NCBI GenBank assembly: GCA_937873695.1
Contig: CALMYL010000006.1
Coordinates: 1-64,000, forward strand
Reading direction: 5' to 3'
Origin: an uncultured Ignavibacteria bacterium
Lineage (GTDB): Bacteria > Bacteroidota > Ignavibacteria > Tepidaquicellales > OLB5
DNA length: 64,000 bases
Of this stretch, positions 20,260 through 22,273 are shown piece by piece; the stretch's first letter is position 1, and each line of letters begins with the position of its first letter. The position numbers were made by a program, and so were the translations under genes. The notes beneath the pieces were generated by a model. The model saw only the letters and a program-made list of their open reading frames with translations, was not told where the DNA came from and made no database searches.

Positions 20260-21042
20260 ATGAAAGTAACAGTTCTGGGAAGCGGTACTTCACAGGGTGT
20301 CCCCATTGTCGGGTGCAGGTGTCCCGCATGTACCTCAAATGATCCCAAAGATAAGAGATTAAGAGTATCTGTATATATTGAAACAGATGTTAACATAAAC
20401 GATAAGCCTTTAAGAATTTTAATAGATACATCACCTGATTTCCGCCAGCAAATGCTGTTGAATGATATTACCGATATTGACGCAGTGTTATATACGCATT
20501 ATCATATCGATCATATAATGGGACTTGATGATATCCGTCAGATAAATCAGCTTCACAGAAAACATGTTGAGCTTTATGCAAACACTGAAACTGCCGGCAA
20601 ATTAAGGCAGGCGTTCAGTTATATCTTTGATGAAAATACCTATAAAGGCGGCGGTATACCACTTGTAAACCTGCATGAAATTGACCTGAATCCATTTGAC
20701 GTTTTGGGGCAAAATGTAATTCCAATAGAATATAAACATGGACCAACAACCGTTTACGGTTTCCGAATAGGTGATTTTGCTTATTTAACCGACTGTAACT
20801 TTATCCCTGAGTCAGAATTCCGGAAACTTGAAGGATTGAAAGTATTGATAATTGACGCCCTGAGATATCGTAAACATGAAACACATTATTCAGTTGATGA
20901 AGCAATCGCGGTATCCCAAAGGATAAATGCCGGGCACACATATTTTACTCATATGACACATGATATTGTTCACGCTGAGGCAAGCAGTAAACTTCCCGCA
21001 AATATTGAATTTGCATATGATGGATTGAAATTTGATGTATGA
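20260..21042 (+). CDS. Metallo-beta-lactamase-fold hydrolase, PhnP-like
   Basis: 260 aa. The N-terminal GSGTSQGVPIVGCRCPACTS is the PhnP-type start with a cysteine cluster for a structural zinc; HYHIDHIMGLDD is the HxHxDH metal-binding motif; a DC near 187 (YLTDCNF) and a C-terminal histidine-rich stretch THMTHD complete the site. PhnP proper hydrolyses cyclic ribose phosphates in phosphonate use, but no phn genes are nearby, so the substrate may be another cyclic phosphodiester. GGGGAG precedes the ATG. Confidence 0.88.
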   Translation: MKVTVLGSGTSQGVPIVGCRCPACTSNDPKDKRLRVSVYIETDVNINDKPLRILIDTSPDFRQQMLLNDITDIDAVLYTHYHIDHIMGLDDIRQINQLHRKHVELYANTETAGKLRQAFSYIFDENTYKGGGIPLVNLHEIDLNPFDVLGQNVIPIEYKHGPTTVYGFRIGDFAYLTDCNFIPESEFRKLEGLKVLIIDALRYRKHETHYSVDEAIAVSQRINAGHTYFTHMTHDIVHAEASSKLPANIEFAYDGLKFDV

Positions 21043-21064
21043 AGATATGAATTCAGAAGCTTTT

Positions 21065-21566
21065 CACCACTAAGACACTAAGTACACTAAGTTCATTGTA
21101 AAGTTAATTGTTAACCTAATATAAATTAATATGACACAAAAATATATCAATGATTTAGCGTATAAAGTAGTTGGGTGTGCCATTGAAGTGCATAAAATCA
21201 TGGGTCCTGGTCTGCTTGAAAGCATATACCAAAAATGTATGCTTAAAGAATTAAGTTTAAACAAAATAGAAGCAAGACAGGAACACAGAATACCTTTGAT
21301 TTACAAAGGTGAAGACCTTGATTCAGAATTAATAATTGATATTTTAATAAAGGATTGTCTTGTAGTAGAATTAAAGTCAGTTGAAAAAACTTTACCTATT
21401 CATAAGGCTCAACTACTTACGTATCTTAAGTTAACAGAAAAACCGAAGGGTTTATTAATAAATTTTAACACTGAGAACATTACTTCGAGCTTAGTCCCAA
21501 TTGTGACCGAAAAATTTGCAGGTTTATCAAAGGAGTAAACTTAGTGTACTTAGTGTCTTAGTGGTG
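21065..21566. mobile_element. GxxExxY unit bounded by perfect 29-bp inverted repeats
   Basis: Positions 21065-21093 and 21538-21566 are exact reverse complements over 29 bases. Each arm is built from three spaced copies of CACTAAG. They enclose only the GxxExxY gene, whose stop codon TAA uses the first base of the right arm. The right arm ends 11 bases before the pyrophosphatase start. Partial complementarity continues just outside (a run of T on the left, of A on the right). No transposase is present. Symmetry suggests a small non-autonomous mobile unit or a cassette. Confidence 0.7.
21131..21538 (+). CDS. GxxExxY-family protein, nuclease-like motifs
   Basis: 135 aa. The family signature GLLESIY is at residues 27-33. 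The core also shows D70, E80-x-K82 (VVELKS) and Q94-xxx-Y98 (AQLLTY), the spacing of a PD-(D/E)xK fold with a RecB/Cas4-like QxxxY motif, so nuclease activity is plausible though not demonstrated for the family as far as I know. The gene fills an inverted-repeat-bounded unit and is transcribed toward inorganic pyrophosphatase. GxxExxY proteins are common and multi-copy in environmental Bacteroidetes-type genomes. Confidence 0.85.
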   Translation: MTQKYINDLAYKVVGCAIEVHKIMGPGLLESIYQKCMLKELSLNKIEARQEHRIPLIYKGEDLDSELIIDILIKDCLVVELKSVEKTLPIHKAQLLTYLKLTEKPKGLLINFNTENITSSLVPIVTEKFAGLSKE

Positions 21567-21577
21567 GAAAAAGAGAA

Positions 21578-22273
21578 ATGGATATAGATAATTTACAGGA
21601 AATATGGGCACAGATAAGGCTTGTGCTTAAATCGCATCCCTGGCACGGTGTGCCAATAGGTAACAATATACCTTCGGTTGTGAATACTTATATTGAAATT
21701 GTACCGACTGATACTGTTAAGTATGAGATAGAAAAGAACAGCGGGTATCTGAAGGTAGACAGACCCCAGAAGTACAGTAATATTTGTCCAACACCGTACG
21801 GGTTCGTGCCGCAAACACTTTGCGGCACAAGAACAGCCGAATTCTGCATGGAAAAAACCGGCAGGACCGGCATCAAAGGAGATGGCGACCCGCTGGATAT
21901 TTGTGTGCTTACCGAAAAGGAAATCACACACAGTGATATATTCCTTAAAGCGGTGCCAATAGGCGGACTTAGAATGATAGACGGCAATGAGGCTGATGAC
22001 AAAATTATCGCTGTAATGGAAGGTGACGGAATTTTCGGTCACTGGATAGATATCACAGATGCCCCTATAACATTGACCGAAAGATTAAAACATTACTTCT
22101 TAACGTACAAAGATGCACCGGGTGCTGAGCACAGGAATTGCGAGATCACACATGTTTACGGCAGGGATGAAGCCCACGAGGTGATAAACAGGAGCTATGA
22201 AGATTATATTGCGAAATACGGGGATCTTGACCGCCTGCTTAAGATGGATCATGACAGACTTAGAGATAAATAA
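21578..22273 (+). CDS. ppa: Inorganic pyrophosphatase (family I)
   Basis: Hydrolyses pyrophosphate to phosphate, driving biosynthesis. The active-site signature GDGDPLDICVL lies near residue 106; further family features are YLKVDRPQKYSN, PTPYGFVPQT and the EGDGIFGHW segment. 231 aa, slightly longer than the bacterial norm and closer to the larger form with an N-terminal extension. The upstream inverted-repeat unit ends 11 bases before the ATG, so the native promoter may have been displaced or may lie further upstream. Confidence 0.93.
   Translation: MDIDNLQEIWAQIRLVLKSHPWHGVPIGNNIPSVVNTYIEIVPTDTVKYEIEKNSGYLKVDRPQKYSNICPTPYGFVPQTLCGTRTAEFCMEKTGRTGIKGDGDPLDICVLTEKEITHSDIFLKAVPIGGLRMIDGNEADDKIIAVMEGDGIFGHWIDITDAPITLTERLKHYFLTYKDAPGAEHRNCEITHVYGRDEAHEVINRSYEDYIAKYGDLDRLLKMDHDRLRDK

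Follow-up and report, generated by a model that had tools for sequence, protein, structure and literature searches.

A GxxExxY gene between inverted tandem-site arms in an Ignavibacteria genome: one copy of a putative compact, REP/RAYT-like element family

We analysed a 64,000-nt stretch of DNA from an uncultured Ignavibacteria bacterium (the window) and found a GxxExxY gene enclosed by inverted arms made of short, oriented sites. The original prediction of a discrete cassette holds up well, as the same gene and arm type occur together at many loci and in several phyla, arms are found without the gene, and empty sites exist. This recurrence points to a compact selfish element of a kind little described so far, without a known transposase. 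We give about an even chance to the reading that the window unit belongs to a family of compact elements with a single gene each, which would be selfish, slow, operon-riding and REP/RAYT-like, with a predicted nuclease working on the arm sites. The association links GxxExxY proteins, which have no assigned role, to unexplained arm-like repeats such as CCACAGAGGACGCAGAG that are dispersed in several phyla, and supplies both with a gene, a candidate substrate and a mechanism open to testing. It also gives the S23 intervening sequences, so far unexplained, a place in a broader gene-in-hairpin class.

The unit lies between two forward-strand host genes that are co-directional with it and form the conserved flanks of the site, namely an MBL-fold hydrolase gene upstream (20260-21042) and ppa, coding for inorganic pyrophosphatase, downstream (21578-22273). 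Pairwise comparison of the arms confirmed the predicted 29-nt inverted repeats (21065-21093 and 21538-21566, exact reverse complements with three CACTAAG copies each) and lengthened them to 33 nt at 97% identity. The left arm (21061-21093, forward strand) begins with the tip TTTTCAC, followed by CACTAAG units at 21068-21074, 21076-21082 and 21085-21091. The right arm (21538-21570, reverse strand) is an inverted copy of the left one, with its three units on the reverse strand at 21540-21546, 21549-21555 and 21557-21563. As also predicted, a single gene is enclosed (21131-21538, forward strand, 135 aa), whose TAA codon (21536-21538) shares its last base with the right arm; ppa adjoins the unit. 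Allowing at most two mismatches, the double unit of the arms has 2 matches in the 64 kb versus 0.19 expected, and the exact double unit has no further copy in the 3.78-Mb genome beyond this pair. A view of the arms as a fixed sequence was rejected, as CACTAAGnCACTAAG is genome-unique to the window element and generality appears only at the level of a degenerate grammar, of which the window arms are one instance. Rfam matched only a tRNA in the window.

In HMM searches the gene product is a member of TIGR04256 (138.3 bits, cut-off 35, E = 1.4e-40) and of PF13366, PDDEXK_3 (131.4 bits, cut-off 22, E = 2.7e-38), and is a predicted PD-(D/E)xK nuclease. Matches to Cas4 profiles were weak (E = 0.004), the AlphaFold model had a pLDDT of 47 (too poor to use) and the best PDB match was 4ic1 (E = 0.18). 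The predicted nuclease residues are E30, D70, E80-x-K82 and Q94-xxx-Y98; all but E30, an extra near-invariant residue, had been correctly named from the sequence. Among 85 GxxExxY proteins, D70 and K82 are invariant (85/85 each), followed by E30 and E80 (84/85 each), Q94 (81/85) and Y98 (74/85, the others mostly having H). HMM searches of the unit found neither a transposase of a known class nor a RAYT (Y1 transposase), its only gene being PF13366 without another family match. Carriage by phages was rejected: phage records and IMG/VR contained no relative, and no PHROG match was obtained. Literature mentions of GxxExxY had no bearing on such arms in title, abstract or available passage, and the arm sequences tried were not found in literature text.

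All seven PF13366 genes of the window's genome are surrounded by inverted arms, whose sequences vary between elements and agree within an element, with CGCAAAGA, CACAAAGG, CACAGAGG, CACTAAGA or CACGAATT as the unit. Arms framing GxxExxY genes elsewhere, which had been proposed as a check, are thus present as degenerate arms, at 7/7 loci of this genome and in relatives. At 76 GxxExxY loci from 36 relatives, the median flanking inverted-repeat score was 15.5 versus 9.0 for a control in which left and right flanks were swapped between elements, and a score of at least 13 was reached at 53/76 loci versus 28/228 swapped flanks. Phylum-wide (30 genomes), the same threshold was reached by 18/30 versus 5/90. 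The gene is present in 101 of 198 sampled genomes of the phylum, patchily and with up to 12 copies per genome. About one third of the copies, chiefly of one divergent protein clade, have weak or absent arms. Divergent GxxExxY proteins (loci L074, L076, L060 and others) come with CAGGATTT or CTGATTA arm units, or with no clear arms.

The arm grammar consists of a tip, TTaAC, and then 2-4 oriented CRCNRAG units spaced 8-9 nt. CRCNRAG lies on the expected strand in 261 cases and on the opposite one in 37, and logos anchored on 64 arms place TTaAC immediately outside the first unit, with information ending ~5 nt outside. At least two oriented units on both sides were found in 45/85 real elements versus 0/4948 pseudo-elements. 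One protein clade has CRCNRATT in place of CRCNRAG. When elements were compared with their nearest neighbour by protein in a different genome, the arm class was the same in 54 of 57 cases, against 47 at most after label shuffling within genomes, an agreement limited by arm class B being mostly one locus by descent. At a few phylum-wide copies (L250, L255) the CRCNRAG units are directed outward rather than inward.

Other phyla were sampled through plasmid records only; a single-protein scan of genome contigs gave 6 loci. CRCNRAG arms or hairpins accompany GxxExxY genes in Bacteroides finegoldii (radA-GxxExxY) and in Gemmatirosa kalamazoonensis, and were not seen at the copies of Treponema, Persicobacter and Fusobacteria. 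In Sphingomonas parapaucimobilis (L118:1430-1920), a GxxExxY unit with CGCGAAG arms is inserted in the fatty-acid operon, between fabD and fabG. The Bacteroides and Sphingomonas copies are not armless, a reading that was rejected, as their arms overlap the ORF ends or lie beyond a mis-called ORF.

A second gene family shows a parallel arrangement. The window's genome has six PF05635 genes (S23, four-helix-bundle), all between inverted arms, as are 31 of the 34 sampled S23 genes. Their arms are tandem heptamers with a period-7 autocorrelation of 0.69 and without CRCNRAG, and the CRCNRAG grammar was found at 0/34 S23 loci. These genes share the design of the 23S rRNA intervening sequence (IVS) of Coxiella burnetii, which is 428 nt long and has an S23 ORF, a 28-bp terminal stem and heptamer repeats, and is excised by RNase III (PMC4990558). 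S23 genes outside rRNA (L010-L015, L121-L149) have a heptamer that differs per element and are in sense orientation in operons.

The Coxiella IVS is the model for the main rival explanation, according to which the unit is an IVS-like RNA element: the arms would pair in the operon transcript, RNase III would cut the stem and the insert would be released with the neighbours little disturbed, the protein being either RNA-acting or incidental. In favour of this reading, GxxExxY genes are co-directional with both neighbours in 71/84 cases and opposite to both in 2/84; the co-directional values are 29/30 for S23 genes and 30/44 for background gene triplets in the window. The arms of the window unit also pair in its RNA fold (MFE -136 kcal/mol, z -6.6). 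However, arm mismatches on the sense strand show no G-U excess over A-C, either for GxxExxY (47 versus 59) or for S23 (30 versus 40), and selection for RNA pairing of the arms was rejected on this account. Variable arm positions are shared within an element at 0.80-0.83, compared with 0.505 between elements, and they match by element more than by register (0.827 in the same register, 0.801 for other units). Because this matching hardly depends on register and G-U bias is absent, the arm sites themselves, more than their base pairing, look conserved as far as sequence comparison goes. Solo arms persist though they are unable to pair, and the conserved nuclease site is left without explanation by this mechanism, which we regard as unlikely.

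The arrangement of the GxxExxY gene next to ppa, whose strict conservation among relatives would have spoken against the original prediction, is not fixed, because the genus keeps MBL and ppa in synteny but only two of the checked genomes have the element there, the window's own (G000) and G009. Comparison of this site in relatives, as had been proposed, showed that G005 and G011 retain the left arm alone. By ppa identity, G005 (98%) and G011 (97%) are closer relatives of G000 than is G009 (91%). Since the G000 and G009 copies have common flanks, the simplest history would be that the gene was lost from G005 and G011. At four further orthologous sites the states are again a full element, an arm pair without the gene, one arm alone or an empty junction of 11 nt. 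In the TDO-SDR-DUF4286 region, five genomes have a full element at site 1 and two have one at site 2; four genomes have at site 2 a pair of arms of that class without the gene, and G012 is empty at both sites.

Gene-bearing copies with at least 76% DNA identity nearly all share flanks and are orthologous, with two pairs lacking a flank match. Pairwise flank comparison found no near-identical gene-bearing copies at unrelated sites, the mark of recent long-range transposition, and a tip-anchored test gave no signal of target-site duplication in 47 elements. Long direct repeats around 12/71 copies are local duplications, and 20-bp direct repeats at L054 and L071 were rejected as target-site duplications, being parts of larger local duplications. 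The sole moves seen were local, around an SDR gene. Because similar copies are orthologous and moves were seen only locally, long-range movement of gene-bearing copies is, to judge from these comparisons, old or rare. The original description of a mobile or selfish cassette without a classical transposase thus stands as to the transposase, of which no known kind was found; current mobility found no support in these comparisons.

The window and G009 proteins differ by a dN of 0.070 and a dS of 1.62 (dN/dS about 0.04), and the GxxExxY gene is under purifying selection. This low ratio, the vertical orthologous copies at several loci of the genus and the lack of recent long-range jumps would all suit a host-adapted gene with a useful nucleic-acid job, whose arms regulate it as operators or mRNA-processing sites and which spreads by ordinary transfer. 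Such a gene is hard to reconcile with the many copies per genome and their patchy presence, with repeated gene loss that leaves arms behind, and with dispersed gene-less arms that are more numerous than the genes. We consider a host-adapted gene quite unlikely.

The gene-less arms are a large population. Across 39 genomes the strict arm pattern had 243 matches versus 9 for the reversed pattern, and arms outnumber GxxExxY genes and are dispersed in the genomes as singlets and inverted doublets, a REP-like trait. Arms persist without the gene, because G006, which has no GxxExxY gene, contains 5 strict arms. G037 carries a dispersed family of ~85-nt gene-less arm hairpins; these hairpins (L209-L218) sit inside a larger palindromic dispersed repeat (GAGAGTGTCTCAAAACTA...) and form a composite repeat family. 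About 60 arm places are spread over two large Gemmatirosa replicons, and further ones over several records of B. finegoldii. One Gemmatirosa locus (L267:740-950) has nested CRCNRAG hairpins, with one arm pair within another. One arm of a B. finegoldii unit with the gene is identical over 32 nt to that of a gene-less B. ovatus hairpin that sits between gmd and fcl, where Phocaeicola has no hairpin. S. paeninsulae has a short spacer and no element between fabD and fabG. Solo arms are also found on Scytonema and Anabaena plasmids. Around elements, arms are commonly amplified as local direct arrays of ~50-150 bp (L008, L071, L219).

The arms being far commoner than the gene, and found in G006, could mean that they are an independent MITE-like hairpin repeat of tandem sites, mobilised by a different enzyme of the host or of a transposon, and that GxxExxY is captured cargo; the S23 family, with a similar architecture and other units, could be read in the same way. 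But CRCNRAG arms bracket GxxExxY and not S23, which has its own period-7 arms, and this specificity on both sides makes random cargo capture unlikely. The arm class moreover tracks the protein clade, and we hold this explanation to be improbable. Chance or an assembly artefact can practically be dismissed, as the pattern was seen in dozens of separate assemblies, complete genomes among them, and in none of the pseudo-elements.

We thus return to the reading of gene and arms as a selfish, REP/RAYT-like pair. From the family-specific association, the conserved nuclease residues and the gene-less derivatives, we infer that the GxxExxY protein acts on the arms, in line with the original suggestion that it could process the ends. 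Read-through transcription of the host operon would express the gene, and its product, a predicted PD-(D/E)xK nuclease of Cas4/RecB-like type, would recognise the arm sites, probably on folded arms or on arms that are single-stranded during replication. Nicking or trimming of the arms would lead host repair to copy arm-bounded DNA to new places, the nuclease serving its own gene in cis and solo arms and gene-less pairs in trans. Movement would be rare and inheritance mostly vertical, with the gene often lost while the arms stay. A broader proposal, to which we give somewhat less than an even chance, is that GxxExxY genes with CRCNRAG arms form a widespread, unnamed selfish class in which a nuclease replaces the transposase and mobilises arm-bounded units and gene-less hairpins, and that heptamer-armed S23 genes, among them the rRNA IVS, form a second class built on the same plan.

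By their defining features, the window unit is outside the IS, RAYT and IVS families. It resembles the REP/REPIN-RAYT organisation described in PMC3116915 in having a single gene beside inverted short repeats, dispersed solo and paired gene-less copies, genome-specific flavours and little gene mobility. It differs in that GxxExxY belongs to a PD-(D/E)xK nuclease family, whereas RAYT is a Y1/HUH transposase; each of its arms consists of several arrayed 8-9-nt sites, whereas a REP is one short palindrome; and GxxExxY occurs in several divergent copies per genome. With the 23S rRNA IVS, which is considered selfish (PMC4990558), it shares a size of ~0.4-0.5 kb, one small ORF within terminal inverted repeats and tandem short repeats near the ends. 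Unlike the IVS, the window unit lies between an MBL gene and ppa rather than in rRNA, encodes PF13366 instead of S23, and has arm units of 8-9 nt instead of 7 nt. The GxxExxY unit may work like a mixture of RAYT and IVS.

Terminal inverted repeats and internally deleted derivatives are shared with MITEs and insertion sequences, from which the unit differs in lacking a transposase of a known class and a detectable target-site duplication. The window protein is a member of TIGR04256 and PF13366 by HMM, and the family entry is a protein model. Heptanucleotide repeats such as the cyanobacterial STRR and the TAACTGA repeat of Beggiatoaceae are dispersed intergenic tandem arrays of short units (PMC4679880); their descriptions give direct arrays with no nuclease gene linked to them, whereas the GxxExxY arms are inverted around a gene. 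Elsewhere in the window's genome (L106:1240-1520), a solo arm (ACCACAGAGGCACAGAG) lies shortly after an apparent 5S rRNA gene.
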